From a virus: a stretch of DNA of 46,208 nucleotides. Positions 4,169 to 22,781 of the stretch are shown here, piece by piece (positions within the stretch are counted from its first letter, which is position 1; each line of letters starts with the position of its first letter). The stretch spans positions 1 through 46,208 of IMG/VR virus record IMGVR_UViG_3300046500_000250; one strand, 5' to 3'. Position numbers and translations under genes: made by a program. Below the pieces are notes generated by a model, which searched no databases, was not told where the DNA came from, and saw only the letters and a program-made list of their open reading frames with translations.

Positions 4169-4432
4169 ATGAGCGGACTGATCGATTGGGTAGGCTGCGA
4201 AAGCCGCCAGGCAAGGGCCTGCCACCGGCGCGCCGCCCGAGCCACCGCCAGCGGACGGCGTGACCAGCAAGGCGCGCGCCGTCGCACCAGCACCCGCCGC
4301 CGGCCATGGGCCGAACTTGCCGAGTTTGCTATACTCCGCCCCGTCTTCCGGCTCGGCCGGCCCATGGCGGCTGGCGCACCGTGCAGACGGTCCGCTCGCC
4401 GTAGTTCAATGGATAGAACGAGCGCCTCCTAA
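4169..4432 (+). CDS. Possible small or degraded ORF between the LRAT gene and the tRNA
   Basis: A GGGAGC site precedes ATG 4169 and the first residues (MSGLIDWVG) look protein-like. After that the translation becomes Arg-rich, has no recognisable motif, and runs into the 5' half of tRNA-Arg. A one-base shift near codon 10 would give a shorter peptide ending at 4263. It may be a frameshifted remnant of a short gene co-transcribed with the LRAT gene, or no gene at all. Confidence 0.25.
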   Translation: MSGLIDWVGCESRQARACHRRAARATASGRRDQQGARRRTSTRRRPWAELAEFAILRPVFRLGRPMAAGAPCRRSARRSSMDRTSAS

Positions 4433-4469
4433 GCGCTAGATACAGGTTCGATTCCTGTCGGCGGGACCA
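4395..4469 (+). tRNA. tRNA-Arg (anticodon CCT); prophage attachment target
   Basis: Folds as a cloverleaf. Acceptor CTCGCCG (4395-4401) pairs with CGGCGGG, with one T-G pair. The D arm is GTTC...GAAC, the anticodon stem AGCGC/GCGCT with loop CTCCTAA (anticodon CCT, reads AGG), and the T arm ACAGG-TTCGATT-CCTGT. The 3' CCA is encoded. An integrase gene begins 166 bp downstream, the usual arrangement when a phage integrates into the 3' end of a tRNA gene. The attL core is therefore expected inside about 4440-4469; the matching attR copy is outside the window. Confidence 0.95.
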
Positions 4470-4635: not shown

Positions 4636-5862
4636 ATGCCCATCCGCGTCGAGCCACTCTCAGACACCAAACTCCGTAACGCCAAAGCAAAAGAGAAACC
4701 GTACAAGCTGGCGGACGGTGGGGGCCTGTTTCTGGAGGTAATGCCCGACGGCCGCAAGCTGTGGCGCTTTCGATATTTCAGGCCCTCAGGTAGCGAGAAT
4801 CGGCTCGGATTCGGCGTGTACCCCGAAGTCACCCTGGCCCAGGCACGCGCGCAGCGCGATTCGGCACGCACCCTGCTGGCCGCAGGCACCGACCCCGGCA
4901 CCGCCAAACAGGATCAGCGCCTCGCGGCCAAGATCGCCGCCGGCAATTCCTTCGAGGCGGTCGCTCGTGACTGGCATGCCACCCAGAAGGAAAGCTGGAA
5001 CGAGGTCTATGCCGGCAAGGTCCTCACCTCGCTCGAGAACGACGTCTTCCCCGTCTTGGGCACCACGCCCATCTCCGACATCCGCGCGCCGGCCATCCTG
5101 GCGCTGCTGAAGAAGGTCGAAGCGCGCGGCGTCCGCGACACCACGAAACGCGTGCTGCAGCGCATGCGGGCGGTGTTCCAGTACGGCATCGTCTATGGCC
5201 TGTGCGACCGCAATCCGGCCACCGATATTGATAGCGAGGTTGTGCTCAAGGCGGCGCCGGTCCAGCACATGGCCAGGGTGCCGCTCGCCGAGCTGCCGCA
5301 GCTGCTGCGTGACATCGATGGCTACGAGGGCGACAAGGTCACGCGCCTGGCGTTGCAGCTCATGACGCTGACTTTCGTGCGCACCACGGAAATGATCCAG
5401 GCGAAGTGGGACGAGATCGACGATGGCAAAGCCGAATGGCTGGTGCCGGCCGAGCGCATGAAGATGCGCGACCCCCACGTGGTGCCGCTATCCACGCAGG
5501 CTCTGGCCGTGCTGAAGGAACTGCGCGACATCAATGGTCACCGCGGCTATGTCTTCTACAGCCCGCGCGGAAAGATGGGCCACATCAGCAACAACACCAT
5601 GCTGTACGCGCTGTACCGGCTGGGGTACCACTCGCGCATGACTGGCCACGGGTTCCGGGGCCTGGCATCCACGGCGCTGAACGAATTAGGATTCCGACCG
5701 GACGTGATCGAGCGGCAGCTTGCGCACGTCGAACGCAACAAGGTGCGGGCCGCCTACAACCACGCTCAATACCTGCCAGAGCGTCGGCAGATGATGCAGG
5801 CGTGGGCGACGCACCTTGGGCAATTGCGTTCTAGCTCCGCATCACACAAGCCAAACACATGA
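4636..5862 (+). CDS. int: Tyrosine-type site-specific integrase (DUF4102/P4-like)
   Basis: 408 aa, the normal length for P4-like integrases. The N-terminal arm-binding DUF4102 domain is clear (LSDTKLRNAKAKEKPYKLAD and GGLFLEV). A central SAM-like core-binding domain spans about 100-190. The catalytic domain has Arg249 (TFVRTTE), His338/Arg341 (GHGFR), His364 and nucleophile Tyr374 (AAYNH). It recombines phage attP with the bacterial attB, here the adjacent tRNA-Arg gene. It reads away from the tRNA, which marks the left end of the prophage. The protein starts at the first ATG after the tRNA; no strong ribosome site is seen. Confidence 0.96.
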   Translation: MPIRVEPLSDTKLRNAKAKEKPYKLADGGGLFLEVMPDGRKLWRFRYFRPSGSENRLGFGVYPEVTLAQARAQRDSARTLLAAGTDPGTAKQDQRLAAKIAAGNSFEAVARDWHATQKESWNEVYAGKVLTSLENDVFPVLGTTPISDIRAPAILALLKKVEARGVRDTTKRVLQRMRAVFQYGIVYGLCDRNPATDIDSEVVLKAAPVQHMARVPLAELPQLLRDIDGYEGDKVTRLALQLMTLTFVRTTEMIQAKWDEIDDGKAEWLVPAERMKMRDPHVVPLSTQALAVLKELRDINGHRGYVFYSPRGKMGHISNNTMLYALYRLGYHSRMTGHGFRGLASTALNELGFRPDVIERQLAHVERNKVRAAYNHAQYLPERRQMMQAWATHLGQLRSSSASHKPNT

Positions 5863-5965: not shown

Positions 5966-6898
5966 CTATTTCTTGAAAACGATGTCCCGGTGGTATGCCA
6001 GGAACTCTGATTGCATGTCATTGAATACGCCAACGTTTGCCATCTCGGAAACACCCCATTTCTGTAGCACTAACCGATCGAGCTTTGACGAGACGAGTAG
6101 GTCGCCATTGGCAGTGAAGGAGATCATGCCTCTATCAAAGAGGTGATCGATGTGAGGAGATAGAAGAAGTCCATTGCATCCGTTCAATTTCTCTTCGTCA
6201 TTGCAGTCCTTCCAAGGCTTTATGTGGCTGGCCCGCAAGTGTTGAATCTCGGAAATGCCGGTAACTCGGCATTTTGACTCATTGAGTTTGACGTTGGCCT
6301 TGAAAATGCCTTGGCCGCGACGCGCTTTTACGAGCTGATCCTTTGTGGTTGCTCCGATGTCGGTTCTACCCCGAATTGAGCTCTCCTCGGCGTCGTCGCT
6401 TTCGTCTCTCTCAGGGGTTTCGCTGCTTAGCTTTTGTAGGGTGCGGGTGTACTCGGGGCCGATCAAATCGATCAGGCGCTCGGCAAGTGCGTTGGGTACC
6501 GCCGCAAGGTAGACGGACTGAAGGCCATCCCCGACGGTCGACAGAGGAGAATACTTTGCTGGCAAATGCTCCAGAAGCTGTTCAATGAAGTCTTTCGGGC
6601 GGATCTGGTGTTCCAGTTCTCCGAACTCAACGGGGACGTACCACCCCTCATTGGACCAGTTGGATCCTGCAGTCCTGAACTGTGGCTTTGGTGACGACTG
6701 TGCACGTCCGGTGGCAACCCCAACTGCCCGGATCCTCGTGTCGCAAAAGGAGAAGATGATGTCTCCGGCTTGCACCTCCTGCATGTTGTCGTAGAACTGA
6801 TTCCTATGGCCATTTGCCTTGGTCTTTGGCGACCACATGAATTTTCCATGCACCTCGAACTTATAAGTTTGATTCTGATTGACCCACCAGTAACGCAT
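5966..6898 (-). CDS. EVE-HNH protein (candidate modification-dependent type IV restriction nuclease)
   Basis: 310 aa in two domains. The N-terminal ~110 residues (YWWVNQNQTYKFEVHGKFMWSP, then AGDIIFSFCDTRIRAVG) match the EVE/PUA-like fold that flips out and reads modified bases. The C-terminal part (about 205-290) is an HNH_2 nuclease: CRVTG, RASHIKPWKDC, NGLLLSPHIDHLFD. EVE-HNH proteins are known or predicted restriction enzymes against DNA with modified cytosines. It sits just inside the integrase on the opposite strand, the usual place for defence cargo. Its G+C looks lower than that of the structural genes, suggesting separate acquisition. The function is inferred from domain architecture. 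Confidence 0.82.
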   Translation of the reverse strand: MRYWWVNQNQTYKFEVHGKFMWSPKTKANGHRNQFYDNMQEVQAGDIIFSFCDTRIRAVGVATGRAQSSPKPQFRTAGSNWSNEGWYVPVEFGELEHQIRPKDFIEQLLEHLPAKYSPLSTVGDGLQSVYLAAVPNALAERLIDLIGPEYTRTLQKLSSETPERDESDDAEESSIRGRTDIGATTKDQLVKARRGQGIFKANVKLNESKCRVTGISEIQHLRASHIKPWKDCNDEEKLNGCNGLLLSPHIDHLFDRGMISFTANGDLLVSSKLDRLVLQKWGVSEMANVGVFNDMQSEFLAYHRDIVFKK

Positions 6899-7139: not shown

Positions 7140-7799
7140 ATGAAAAGTTGGAGCTTGTTCTGGGGGGTTATGGGTTCGCTGGCAGCGGTATTCTTGATCT
7201 CGGTAGCGGGTGTGACCAGTTTGGGGCGGGAGGCGTACAGTTCGAGCGCCATGGCGAATTGGGTGCAGGCGGTAGGATCGATCGGCGCGATTTTTGGTGC
7301 CGTTTGGTTGGCGACTGCGCAGAGCCGAACCGTGCGTCAGGAGAAACAAGTCGCCATTTTTGCGGTAGTGCATGCGGCAGTCGTTGAAGCGCGAAGATTC
7401 CGCGATTACCTCGGCACCGCCGACCCAGAGCAGGATCTCTATCTCAGCTACCATCGATCCATCGTTGATTCATATTTCGGTGCGCTGTCCAGTTGTCCGG
7501 TGCACGAGCTTCATTCGCCCATAGCGGTGACCGCCCATTTGAGGCTTCGTGATCAGCTTCCATTCCTGCGGGATTCGATTGAGGCGTGCATCGCTGGTCC
7601 TGCGAAACATCCAAAATGGAAAGCGGAGTTTGATGCGCTCGATGGGGCTTTGATGAGCGACGAGAAATTGAGGCTTTGGGAAGAGCGCACCGAACAGAAG
7701 CGAAATGTTCTGAGGCGAAACGTCGAGGTCCATATAGACGCGATTGAGAAAAGGTACGGAGAAATGGCGTCGGCTCTCGGTGACGTGCGTGTGGGCTGA
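7140..7799 (+). CDS. Membrane-anchored prophage cargo protein of unknown function
   Basis: 219 aa. Two hydrophobic segments lie near the N-terminus (SLFWGVMGSLAAVFLISVAGV and, after a short loop, GSIGAIFGAVWLATA). A soluble, charged, mainly helical region of about 150 residues follows and would face the cytoplasm. GGAGAA lies 5 bp before ATG 7140. The WVQAVGSIGAI motif recurs as WVQAIGSILAI in the 182-aa protein at 9561-10109, and the two genes also have similar upstream DNA, so they look like diverged paralogues. Small anchored proteins of this kind in prophages may act in superinfection exclusion, but I recognise no characterised family. Confidence 0.72.
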   Translation: MKSWSLFWGVMGSLAAVFLISVAGVTSLGREAYSSSAMANWVQAVGSIGAIFGAVWLATAQSRTVRQEKQVAIFAVVHAAVVEARRFRDYLGTADPEQDLYLSYHRSIVDSYFGALSSCPVHELHSPIAVTAHLRLRDQLPFLRDSIEACIAGPAKHPKWKAEFDALDGALMSDEKLRLWEERTEQKRNVLRRNVEVHIDAIEKRYGEMASALGDVRVG

Positions 7800-7819: not shown

Positions 7820-8578
7820 TCACGCTGCTTCCTCGAACAGGCTGCGCTGGATTGGCGCGTCTGCCCGCTCCCAAAACGTCAGGGATTGCCGAGCCTCTAT
7901 CCGCTCACGCATAATCTGCGCGCGCGCCTCCTTGCTGGCCGGGGTATAGGTGCCACGCCATGCGCGATCGATGCCGACGTTCTGTGCAATGTTCGTGCTA
8001 TCGGCGCTGGCAAAGGGGAAGCGGCTGAAGACCTCCGGGTCTAGCATGCGCAGGCCATGGAGCTTGCACACGGGCCGGCCGGCGCGGTCACAGACCACAT
8101 CCATCGCTTCGGCCATGCGCGTCCACCAGCGGCCCGTGCCGATCTGGGCGAAGTCCCCCGAGCTGCCGAGGCACACGCGCGGCCACGTCAGCGCCAGGCG
8201 TTCCAGCCGCTCTAGGCTCTCATGCAGATGCCATACCGGTGCGCCAACCCACGGAGCGCGCTCGCGCCAAGGCCATTCCTCGACCAGCGCGTCGTTGGCC
8301 GACTCGTCTCCGTCGATCACGTCGGGGATCACGGCAAAGTCGAAGGCCGGATAGCGGTGCAGTTCGGCCACCCACTCGTAGAACGGCTCCCAGTCCGTCA
8401 CGGGGGCGCCGGAGCGCCACGCGCTGAAGGCGCCATTGTCGACGGCGAAGGACTGGGCGACATCCAGCACGATCCCCAGTTGCTCCGGGTAGCGGAACGA
8501 CACGAAGGCGTGTCCGGAGAAGACCGCTTTGGCAGCCGCCGTCGTGGGCGTGATGGGCATGCCGTGGTAGTGAATCAT
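7820..8578 (-). CDS. TGT/DpdA-like protein (putative nucleobase-modification enzyme)
   Basis: 252 aa. The start at 8578 is chosen because its ATG overlaps the stop of the upstream PP-loop gene (ATGA). Motifs resemble the tRNA-guanine transglycosylase/DpdA superfamily: FAVDNGAFSAW (Asp47, in the place of the DSGGF/DSGAF substrate motif), FDFAVIPDVID (Asp86), KLHGLRML (about 172-179) and SADSTN (Asp193). DpdA enzymes exchange guanine for 7-deazaguanines in DNA. The protein is shorter than bacterial TGT and has no C-terminal Zn-binding Cys cluster. The family call is by motif and fold pattern, so confidence is moderate. Pairing with an ATP-activating PP-loop enzyme suggests a two-enzyme DNA (or RNA) modification step; the chemistry is unknown. 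Confidence 0.6.
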   Translation of the reverse strand: MIHYHGMPITPTTAAAKAVFSGHAFVSFRYPEQLGIVLDVAQSFAVDNGAFSAWRSGAPVTDWEPFYEWVAELHRYPAFDFAVIPDVIDGDESANDALVEEWPWRERAPWVGAPVWHLHESLERLERLALTWPRVCLGSSGDFAQIGTGRWWTRMAEAMDVVCDRAGRPVCKLHGLRMLDPEVFSRFPFASADSTNIAQNVGIDRAWRGTYTPASKEARAQIMRERIEARQSLTFWERADAPIQRSLFEEAA

Positions 8579-9528
8579 TCGCACAGTCCGTAGGACGATG
8601 AGCAAGCAGTGGGCTCGTCGAGTTGATCCAGAAGGCTGAATTGCCGGCCGCCGCGTGTGGTGCGCGCCCATTCCACCTTCTGCCAAACGTTGCCGCGTTC
8701 ACGAGCAGTCTCGTTGTCGCCGGGTGCCGGGAAGAATGTCGCGTTGGCGCGTTTGCTCACGTCGGAGACGATGTCCTCCCATTCCGCGATCCGTTCGATG
8801 TGAGCCTTGTCTTGCTTCGCCCAGGCGTTGATTTCTTCCTTGCTGGAGTTGATGCATACACAGCCGACCCGCTTGCGGCCACGGAGGTAGAGGGGGTTAG
8901 GCTTGATGCCGTACAGTCGGTGGGCCTCGAACACGTCTTCCCATGTCCAACGCAGAATCGGGCGATAGTTGAACAGGCCAGCACCGACCTCATCAAAGTC
9001 AACGACGCACGCGCCGGTGCCTTGGAATCGCGTGCGTCGGGACTGGCTCTCTTCGATACGGACGCCTTGCCACGACCACACCATGCTTCCCGTTTCCTCG
9101 ATGATGGACATGAGGTGTTCAGTGATGGGTATTACCTTCAGTTCGTGCGTGCAGAACTGAGCCATGCGGCTGGGGAAGCGGGCTTTGATGATGCAGAGAT
9201 CAAGAAAAGCAATCCCGGTGGGACCGCGATCGAAAACTCCGAGTGCGCGAGCGACAGTAGCATCGGGGACGCCTTTTGTCGGCCATACATCGCGTACATA
9301 GTCCCGGCGTGTCCACCACTCTCCAGAAAAGTCCCGTCGGACTCGATGGATGGTCACGCCTAGGGCTTCCGCGAGATAGTCCACGTACTCGTAGGTGATC
9401 TCGTGCTCGTTGTCGGTGTCAGCCATCACGAAGCGACACGCTGCACGACCATGCTGCTCAATGGCGAGGATGGCGGTCGCCGTGCTGTCCTTTCCGCCGG
9501 ACATGGAGATGACGTGGACGACGCTCAT
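8575..9528 (-). CDS. PP-loop ATPase, PAPS-reductase/DndC-like
   Basis: 317 aa. The PP-loop SGGKDS (residues 10-15) binds ATP. GVRIEESQSRR (about 155-165) is the second signature of the PAPS-reductase superfamily. Cysteines in QFCTHELK (Cys126) and GCVCIN (Cys223, Cys225) could form a reactive thiol or metal/Fe-S site. Members adenylate a substrate for sulfur or nitrogen transfer: CysH, DndC in DNA phosphorothioation, TtcA/TilS/QueC relatives. No sulfite-assimilation genes are nearby, so true sulfate reduction is unlikely. The stop overlaps the start of the TGT-like gene, so the two work as one unit. GGGAGG lies 9 bp upstream of the ATG. Confidence 0.8.
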   Translation of the reverse strand: MSVVHVISMSGGKDSTATAILAIEQHGRAACRFVMADTDNEHEITYEYVDYLAEALGVTIHRVRRDFSGEWWTRRDYVRDVWPTKGVPDATVARALGVFDRGPTGIAFLDLCIIKARFPSRMAQFCTHELKVIPITEHLMSIIEETGSMVWSWQGVRIEESQSRRTRFQGTGACVVDFDEVGAGLFNYRPILRWTWEDVFEAHRLYGIKPNPLYLRGRKRVGCVCINSSKEEINAWAKQDKAHIERIAEWEDIVSDVSKRANATFFPAPGDNETARERGNVWQKVEWARTTRGGRQFSLLDQLDEPTACSSSYGLCE

Positions 9529-9536: not shown

Positions 9537-9560
9537 GCCTCCCAAAAAATGGGAGGGTCC

Positions 9561-10109
9561 ATGGAAAGCAACGCCGCTGCCTTGCAGCAAGTTATTGCGG
9601 CCTGGGTTCAGGCGATCGGCTCGATCCTGGCCATAGCTGTCACTGCGTTGATCTTCTGGAAGCAGTCCGCGGCCGAGCGGAGGCGAGCGTCTGAAGCCGC
9701 GTTTGCGAAGCGGCTGAGCGACGTCAGACGCGCACAAGCTGTCACGTTCTGGGCGGTCGAGGCGATAGGAAAAGGGGCAGAGAGCAGGGAGCTTGGCGGT
9801 GCGGGCAATGGTCTGCCGTTTCGACCTGCGCGCTTGGATCACCTTAGGCAGATGCTCGAACAAATTGCTCAATCGTCGGACGATAATCCGACGTCTCTGG
9901 CACTGCTGATGATCTGTCATAACCTCGACGATGCTTTCATCACGTACACGCAATTTCCCGATCAGTATCGGGACGTGGAGGTGAAGGCGCTCTACAGAAT
10001 TCGAAAGGAAGCCCAGGATAACTACGACCGAATAGTTGCCTACCAGCAGCGTCTTGAGAGTGAGGCGTTCACCCGCGGCGTTAAGATCGAACGACTCACC
10101 GGCGATTGA
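9561..10109 (+). CDS. Membrane-anchored prophage cargo protein, related to the protein at 7140-7799
   Basis: 182 aa from ATG 9561, preceded by GGGAGG at 9551-9556; an in-frame ATG at 9549 would place that site inside the gene. It has one N-terminal membrane segment (WVQAIGSILAIAVTALIFW) followed by a basic, helical cytoplasmic tail of about 150 residues. The WVQA-x-GSI-x-AI motif and upstream sequence are shared with the gene at 7140, indicating a common origin. It is divergent from the PP-loop gene with only 32 bp between them and converges with the leftward early operon. Unknown function; exclusion or a host-membrane interaction is a guess. Confidence 0.72.
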   Translation: MESNAAALQQVIAAWVQAIGSILAIAVTALIFWKQSAAERRRASEAAFAKRLSDVRRAQAVTFWAVEAIGKGAESRELGGAGNGLPFRPARLDHLRQMLEQIAQSSDDNPTSLALLMICHNLDDAFITYTQFPDQYRDVEVKALYRIRKEAQDNYDRIVAYQQRLESEAFTRGVKIERLTGD

Positions 10110-21263: not shown

Positions 21264-21290
21264 GAACATTCGTAATCTTTTTTGCTTACC
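21237..21290. repeat. 19-bp inverted repeat upstream of hicA (probable HicB operator)
   Basis: The arm GGTAAACAAAAAAGATTAC (21237-21255) pairs with its complement at 21272-21290 with one mismatch, around a 16-bp spacer. It is AT-rich in a GC-rich region and lies between hicA and the late genes. HicB proteins autoregulate through such repeats. Confidence 0.6.
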
Positions 21291-21345
21291 GGTTGCCAAC
21301 TGACATCGCTGCACAGGTTGTCTCCTCCGCCCTCCCAGGTGGTTT

Positions 21346-21373
21346 GCCCGGCTACCCGTTCCGGGCGTTTTTT
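21346..21373 (+). terminator. Rho-independent terminator before the late operon
   Basis: GCCCGG-(9 nt)-CCGGGC followed by GTTTTTT. It lies 29 bp upstream of the ParB-methyltransferase start, so late genes would need antitermination or a promoter inside the short gap. Confidence 0.7.
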
Positions 21374-21401
21374 ATTCCACGTCCGAGCATTTTTACCGCG
21401 T

Positions 21402-22781
21402 ATGAAAAAGCCAGATCAGCTCACAATCCGCTACCGCGCGGCCGATGAGCTGGTCCGCTATGAGCGCAATGCACGGACGCACAGCGCCGCTCAGCTCGAG
21501 CAGATCAAGGCGTCGCTGCGCAGATTCGGCTGGACCAATCCGGCGCTGACTGCCGGCGACGAGCTGCTGGCTGGCCATGGCCGCCTGGAAGCGGCCACGC
21601 AGCTGTGGGCGGCTGGCGAGACTATCGCCAACTGCCCGGTCCCGGGCCAAGTGCCCACGGTAGACCTGTCGCACCTGTCGGCGGACGAGCGCCGCGCATA
21701 CATCCTCACGGACAACAAGCTGGCCGAGAACGCTGGCTGGGATGTCGACCTGCTGGCCGCCGAGCTGGTGGACCTGCGCGACGCCGAGTTCGACCTGACG
21801 GTGCTCGGCTTCACGCCGGACGAGCTGGGCGAGCTGCTGGACCCACCGGGCCCGGCGCCAAGCACGCAGCGCCGGACGCTGGCCGAGCAGTTCATGGTGC
21901 CGCCCTTCAGCACGCTCAACGCACGCGACGCGGCGTGGCAGGAACGCAAGGCCGCATGGCTGGGCCTGGGCATCCAGTCCGAGCTGGGCCGCGACGCGCC
22001 GGCCTATGCGTCGGCGTCTGACCACCAGAAGGCCGAGCAGGGCGCCGCGCCGCAGCACCGCACCAGCATCTTCGACCCGGTGCTGTGCGAGCTGGCCTAT
22101 CGGTGGTTCTGCCCGCCGGGCGGCCTGGTGCTTGACCCGTTCGCCGGTGGCAGCGTGCGCGGCGTTGTCGCGGCGCGCCTCGGGCGCCCGTATGTGGGCA
22201 TGGAGCTGCGCGCCGAGCAGGTGGACGCCAACCGCGGCCAACTGCACCTGGTGCAGACCGAAGACCCCGCGCCAGCCTGGCACGTGGGCGACAGCCGGCA
22301 GATTGCGCGGCGGCTGCCCGATGTCGAGGCCGACTTCCTGTTCTCGTGCCCGCCGTATGCGGACCTGGAACGGTATTCGGACGATCCGGCGGACCTGTCC
22401 ACGATGGACTATCCGGCCTTCATGGAGGCCTACCGCGAGGTGATCGTCGGCGCCGTCAGCCTGCTGAAGCGTGACCGATTCGCCTGCTTCGTGGTCGGCG
22501 ACGTGCGCGAGAAGCGCGGCACCGGCCCGTATCGGAATTTCGTGTCGGACACGATCGACGCGTTCATCGATGCCGGCATGCGGCTGTACAACGAAGCCAT
22601 CCTGCTGACCGCGCTGGGCAGCGCGCCCATCCGCGCGGGCAAGCAGTTCGCAGCCAGCCGGAAGCTGGGCAAGGTGCACCAGAACGTCCTGGTGTTCGTG
22701 AAGGGCGACTGGAAGCGCGCCGTGGCGGCGTGCGGTGACGTGGTGCTGGCGGACGATCTGTTCCCCGATCCTGACGAGTGA
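21402..22781 (+). CDS. ParB-domain DNA methyltransferase fusion
   Basis: 459 aa from ATG 21402. The N-terminal ~130 residues form a ParB/Srx-like nuclease-type domain (ARTHSAAQLEQIKASLRRFGWTNPALT, GHGRLEAA, ILTDNKLAENAGWD). The C-terminal half is a DNA methyltransferase: motif IV SCPPYADLERYS and SAM-binding motif VLDPFAGGSVRGVV. The SPPY-type catalytic tetrad indicates an amino methyltransferase (N6-adenine or N4-cytosine). This architecture is common next to terminase genes in phages, where it may mark phage DNA against restriction. No paired restriction gene is present, so it is an orphan enzyme. No clear ribosome site precedes the ATG. Confidence 0.9.
   Translation: MKKPDQLTIRYRAADELVRYERNARTHSAAQLEQIKASLRRFGWTNPALTAGDELLAGHGRLEAATQLWAAGETIANCPVPGQVPTVDLSHLSADERRAYILTDNKLAENAGWDVDLLAAELVDLRDAEFDLTVLGFTPDELGELLDPPGPAPSTQRRTLAEQFMVPPFSTLNARDAAWQERKAAWLGLGIQSELGRDAPAYASASDHQKAEQGAAPQHRTSIFDPVLCELAYRWFCPPGGLVLDPFAGGSVRGVVAARLGRPYVGMELRAEQVDANRGQLHLVQTEDPAPAWHVGDSRQIARRLPDVEADFLFSCPPYADLERYSDDPADLSTMDYPAFMEAYREVIVGAVSLLKRDRFACFVVGDVREKRGTGPYRNFVSDTIDAFIDAGMRLYNEAILLTALGSAPIRAGKQFAASRKLGKVHQNVLVFVKGDWKRAVAACGDVVLADDLFPDPDE

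Follow-up and report, generated by a model that had tools for sequence, protein, structure and literature searches.

The closest described counterparts of the locus reported here are the solo DpdA proteins of phage MED16 (gp38, called DpdA) and Salmonella phage 7-11 (gp32). Neither phage encodes preQ0 genes, and LC-MS/MS detected dADG in their DNA at 0.13% and 0.02% of G, respectively (PMC8306585, PMC6884629). The restriction enzymes tested with MED16 were unaffected by its dADG (PMC8306585). Hutinet et al. (2019) placed 76 phages in a "DpdA only" group and proposed the host as their supplier of preQ0, and in the same survey YhhQ was not correlated with any phage group (PMC6884629). A PP-loop protein and a TGT-barrel protein also occur together in type IV CBASS, where Cap9, a QueC-family protein, and Cap10 conjugate 7-deazaguanine to the N terminus of a nucleotidyltransferase (PMC11996544). 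The PAPS-reductase type of PP-loop fold, with conserved cysteines, is found in DndC, SspD, and BrxP of DNA phosphorothioation systems and in the phage proteins of phrog_424, which include orf84 of phage 186 and proteins of phages S1 and Parlo.

The window, meaning the whole stretch of DNA that was analyzed, is a 46,208-base virus record of a prophage with a tRNA-Arg(cct) gene at 4395 to 4469 and an integrase gene at 4636 to 5862. Two minus-strand genes, one for a 317-amino-acid PP-loop ATPase (8575 to 9528) and one for a 252-amino-acid TGT-like protein (7820 to 8578), share four nucleotides, ATGA, that hold the stop of the former and the start of the latter (8575 to 8578, minus strand). An earlier note on this DNA had reported both ORFs and their overlap, which we confirmed, and had proposed that they form a new nucleic acid modification system. 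The proposal of a new system was not supported. Both proteins belong to large phage families that already have names, phrog_887 for the TGT-like protein and phrog_424 for the PP-loop protein. Unlike MED16 and 7-11, the phage of the window, known here from sequence alone, is temperate and probably betaproteobacterial, and its DpdA-like gene is overlapped by a PP-loop gene. The pair is flanked by plus-strand genes at 7140 to 7799 and 9549 to 10109 whose products have similar N-terminal membrane segments (AxWVQAxGSIxAI); neither had a Pfam match, and a weak PHROG match was found for 7140 to 7799 only. No near DNA match to the window was found among plasmids.

The 252-amino-acid protein matches phrog_887, annotated as "queuine tRNA-ribosyltransferase," with an E value of 4.7e-73, and homologues were found in 102 of 50,697 phage records. 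It is 35 to 42% identical to MED16 gp38, 7-11 gp32, and SEN1_38, with every putative catalytic residue kept, and the homology to gp38 and gp32 extends over nearly the full length. Like those two proteins, it has the same motifs, is short, lacks a zinc cluster, and comes from a phage without preQ0 biosynthesis genes. By these features it fits the "DpdA only" group of Hutinet et al. The TGT/DpdA-type fold proposed in the earlier note was borne out by the AlphaFold model (pLDDT 88.8), for which the best VIA-align matches were archaeosine and bacterial TGTs (Z 15.6 to 14.3, root mean square deviation [rmsd] 3.1 to 4.0, approximately 211 to 229 residues aligned), including 1iq8 (Z 15.6, rmsd 3.3, 224 aligned) and the Zymomonas TGT (Z about 15). 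In the top rows of a Foldseek search, TGT was level with further TIM barrels, among them tryptophan synthase alpha; VIA-align told them apart. Profile-profile comparison of the family with host TGTs (hhalign) gave no match, and hmmsearch against PDB sequences gave no link to canonical TGT, so it is the fold, the motifs, and the homologues in phages that support the connection to TGT.

The motifs DNGAFSAW, FAVIPDV, KLHGL, and ADST were all present as first read and are not due to chance, because their core residues are invariant across 27 diverse relatives. The invariant set comprises D47, N48, G49, A50, P85, D86, H117, G138, G141, H174, L176, R177, D193, and S194, most of which lie at or just past the ends of barrel strands in the model. 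Their order matches that of the TGT motifs DSGGF, DEC, GG, MGV, and FDCVMPTR, and barrel and motif order are common to this protein and to bacterial and archaeal TGTs. On this motif order, D47 in DNGAF (codon 8438 to 8440, minus strand), located at a barrel-strand end, would be the counterpart of the TGT DSGGF aspartate, D86 in PDV (8321 to 8323, minus strand) the counterpart of the base-recognizing aspartate, and D193 in ADST (8000 to 8002, minus strand) the putative nucleophile. TGTs are about 375 amino acids long and have a zinc site (CxCxxC...H) and an RNA-binding extension, whereas the 252-amino-acid protein has neither. The lack of a TGT-type zinc cysteine cluster, already pointed out in the earlier note, extends to its close relatives, in which a single cysteine is invariant; none is invariant among the 27 diverse relatives.

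We consider it probable that the TGT-like gene encodes a solo DpdA that uses a host-supplied precursor and that it lies beside an independent PP-loop moron. The TGT-barrel enzyme would swap guanine in DNA for a preQ0-type 7-deazaguanine base that is made by the host or imported, the phage itself having no preQ0 genes. D193 would act as the nucleophile, D47 as the general acid/base, and D86 in base recognition. The DNA would thereby be marked sparsely with dPreQ0 or dADG, presumably for restriction evasion or DNA tagging. We infer catalysis, substrate, product, and benefit from homology, fold, conserved residues, gene neighborhoods, and the presence of QueC and TGT in the hosts of related lysogens.

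The earlier note had left the target as either DNA or a host tRNA. DNA is a plausible target through the homologues gp38 of MED16 and gp32 of 7-11. It may nevertheless not be the main target, because dADG in both phages is very sparse and the restriction enzymes tested with MED16 were not affected, and these trace amounts may leave room for RNA or protein targets. If the enzyme acted on host tRNA or another RNA, the DNA modification in relatives would be a side reaction, a reading with which the low dADG levels and a barrel shared with tRNA TGT are consistent. We regard it as unlikely, since the protein, of approximately 250 amino acids, has no zinc site or RNA-binding extension, the TGT-like genes sit in early or DNA metabolism regions of phage genomes, and dADG was found in the DNA of two relatives.

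The recurrent partner of the TGT-like gene is preQ0 supply. A supply gene was found in 47 of the 88 loci of relatives, encoding a YhhQ-type transporter in 41, QueD in 5, and QueC plus QueE in 1, and in 46 of these 47 loci it was on the same strand and at most 600 bp away, as checked with Pfam. In whole records, PF02592 or PF01242 was present in 21 of 50 with the TGT gene versus 0 of 50 PP-loop control records (Fisher P = 7e-8, a value that overstates independence because many loci are close relatives). DpdA and YhhQ genes are close and often overlapping in L028 to L080, L187, and L189, and the transporter link extends to isolates that are only distantly related, PEAT2, with a VUT family protein, and BUCT006, with a putative vitamin uptake transporter. 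In line with the earlier note, profile searches of the window record, which may be incomplete, detected neither a QueD- nor a YhhQ-family gene, and the only match to the QueC profile was the PP-loop protein, below the cutoff. All seven bacterial genomes with close relatives of the 252-amino-acid protein encode both QueC and TGT, so the precursor is available in the hosts of these relatives. Together with the supply genes in relatives' loci, this makes it likely, as the earlier note had supposed, that the 252-amino-acid protein draws on a host-made 7-deazaguanine precursor. One of the genomes surveyed, Cupriavidus necator A5-1 (L181), also encodes a second, divergent TGT-domain protein, with another QueC gene approximately 2 kb away; this may be a Dpd-type or deazaguanine defense locus.

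The PP-loop protein matches PAPS_reduct (E value of 1e-18) and phrog_424. Its model (pLDDT 72.9, with residues 291 to 317 unreliable) was closest to PAPS/APS reductases (6vpu, Z 13.9; 2goy, Z 13.8; VIA-align). The PP motif SGGKDS (residues 10 to 15; 9484 to 9501, minus strand) and GVRIEESQSRR are present as described earlier, and S10, G12, K13, D14, and S15 are invariant in ten relatives. An intact SGGKDS is typical of ATP-using PP-loop enzymes. To the cysteines listed before, C126, C223, and C225, which we found in place, C112, C309, and C316 can be added, as all six are invariant across the ten relatives; their codons span 8581 to 9195 on the minus strand and could form a metal, Fe-S, or redox site. 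The phrog_424 proteins of phages 186, S1, and Parlo are 41 to 47% identical to it over the whole length, with the PP motif intact and all six cysteines.

Several named enzymes were rejected as identities for this protein. It missed both curated cutoffs for CysH, the assimilatory PAPS/APS reductase (36 versus 154 bits and 24 versus 165 bits), it fell below the PF06508 cutoff for QueC, Cap9, or QatC (18.0 versus 22 bits), and it scored 23.9 bits against 290.4 for the DndC equivalog TIGR03183. PADLOC gave a match to SspD (E value of 4e-19). Unlike at the loci of DndC, SspD, and BrxP, no Dnd partners, in line with the earlier note, and no other Ssp or BREX components were recognized among the ORFs of the window that were scanned.

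Methyltransferases are among the commonest neighbors of the PP-loop gene in relatives, namely, two groups of C5 cytosine methyltransferases, a Dam-type enzyme, and an N4/N6 methyltransferase. By homology clusters, with kinship ignored, a methyltransferase was present in 59 of 149 PP-loop loci and directly adjacent in 34, compared to 19 and 0 of 80 TGT loci. The family often abuts DNA methyltransferases, and in the regions read, phages 186, S1, and Parlo have no TGT neighbor. These neighbors make DNA modification or anti-restriction a likelier role for the PP-loop protein than sulfate assimilation. It would be a separately mobile phage gene, probably a DNA modification-related moron, that combines ATP pyrophosphatase chemistry with conserved cysteines and that, by its usual neighbors, belongs to DNA modification or anti-restriction gene sets; DpdA would not require it.

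Two other genes of the window touch on DNA modification. The product of the gene at 5966 to 6898 (minus strand), approximately 0.9 kb from the DpdA gene, matches the HNH endonuclease of PDB entry 6yex over its full length (E value of 3.9e-92). That entry is the EVE-HNH modification-dependent enzyme VcaM4I; by this similarity, the prophage may also encode a nuclease directed at modified DNA. The gene at 21282 to 22781 (plus strand), which lies upstream of the terminase genes, encodes an N6/N4 DNA methyltransferase domain (PF01555, E value of 4e-11) behind an N-terminal part that, judged by eye, looks ParB-like.

The PP-loop gene is probably not the partner of the TGT-like gene, and the recurrent partners of the two differ. 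PP-loop loci for the pairing counts were gathered by scans with the A6 and A7 profiles (n = 149), which replaced a P0002-seeded search whose hits were mainly remote and included neither L015 nor L150. A TGT gene was present in 6 of the 149 loci and in 4 of 50 whole records with the PP-loop gene. Among 80 IMG/VR TGT loci, one (L015) has a close PP-loop homologue, 1.7 kb away, and several others have weaker PP-loop proteins. The conserved pairing in relatives that the earlier note had looked to is largely absent: the two genes are adjacent in no more than a small number of the approximately 240 loci, and a search of 15 named DpdA-family phages, among them MED16 and 7-11, found no PAPS-reductase-family protein in any of them.

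Adjacency does recur. In Cupriavidus sp. U2 (L150), the two genes have the same ATGA overlap, and the TGT-like protein is 91% identical to that of the window and the PP-loop protein 56 to 59%. The pair overlaps by 4 nucleotides, TTGA, in the divergent L220, and one small gene lies between the two in L345. The overlap itself is not very informative, since most relatives of the TGT-like gene share 4 nucleotides with the gene upstream, whatever that gene is. The window PP-loop protein is 54% identical to that of L257 and 64 to 69% identical to those of seven phages without a TGT gene, and is thus nearer to the latter than to its counterpart in L150 despite the 91% identical TGT there, which indicates that the two genes are shuffled independently. 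The slot just before replication gene A in Eganvirus is occupied by the PP-loop gene in phage 186 (orf84, L196) and by DpdA in SEN1 (SEN1_38, L185). The identities of both proteins are correlated over nine co-occurring loci (rho = 0.81), a pattern that shared phage ancestry would also produce.

These data bear on a dedicated two-enzyme system, in which the TGT-like protein would insert a 7-deazaguanine that the PP-loop protein activates or sulfurates, either ahead of that insertion or following it, to give a new modified base. The overlaps and near-adjacency listed above and the correlated divergence speak for such a system. It is nonetheless quite unlikely, given the scarcity of TGT genes in PP-loop loci and records, the closeness of the window PP-loop protein to those of phages without a TGT gene, and the lack of a PAPS-reductase-family gene in the 15 named DpdA phages, including the two whose DNA contains dADG. 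Some functional link may still exist, as adjacency recurs in L150 and L220 and nearly so in L345. A cooperating minority was kept as a possibility because co-occurrence at 4 to 8% may exceed the background given by the frequency of the TGT gene in phage records, although sampling differs between the two. We see a slim chance that a minority of prophages in betaproteobacteria use the PP-loop protein together with DpdA, for an added ATP-dependent step on 7-deazaguanine that involves, for example, sulfur or an amide; if so, their DNA would carry a base not yet described.

The least probable reading is that the pair modifies a protein in the manner of Cap9 and Cap10: Cap10 (9ntn) ties with TGTs as a fold match of the 252-amino-acid model (Z 15.4) and Cap9 (9nto) is among the fold matches of the PP-loop protein (Z 11.1), but the latter is of the PAPS-reductase rather than the QueC family and is fitted better by PAPS/APS reductases, the gene neighborhood is not shared, no CBASS cyclase or CD-NTase with a modifiable N terminus was recognized among the ORFs scanned (a subset of those in the window), and the recurrent link of the TGT family is with preQ0 uptake rather than with homologues of Cap9.

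With the candidate new system removed, the locus probably consists of a solo DpdA of a known group and a PP-loop gene that travels separately. For the common phage "PAPS reductase" genes, their recurrence beside DNA methyltransferases suggests a part in DNA modification or anti-restriction rather than in sulfate assimilation. The strong link between solo DpdA and preQ0 uptake or synthesis genes supports a real use of 7-deazaguanine by these phages, despite the YhhQ result of Hutinet et al., and makes the puzzle of trace dADG testable.
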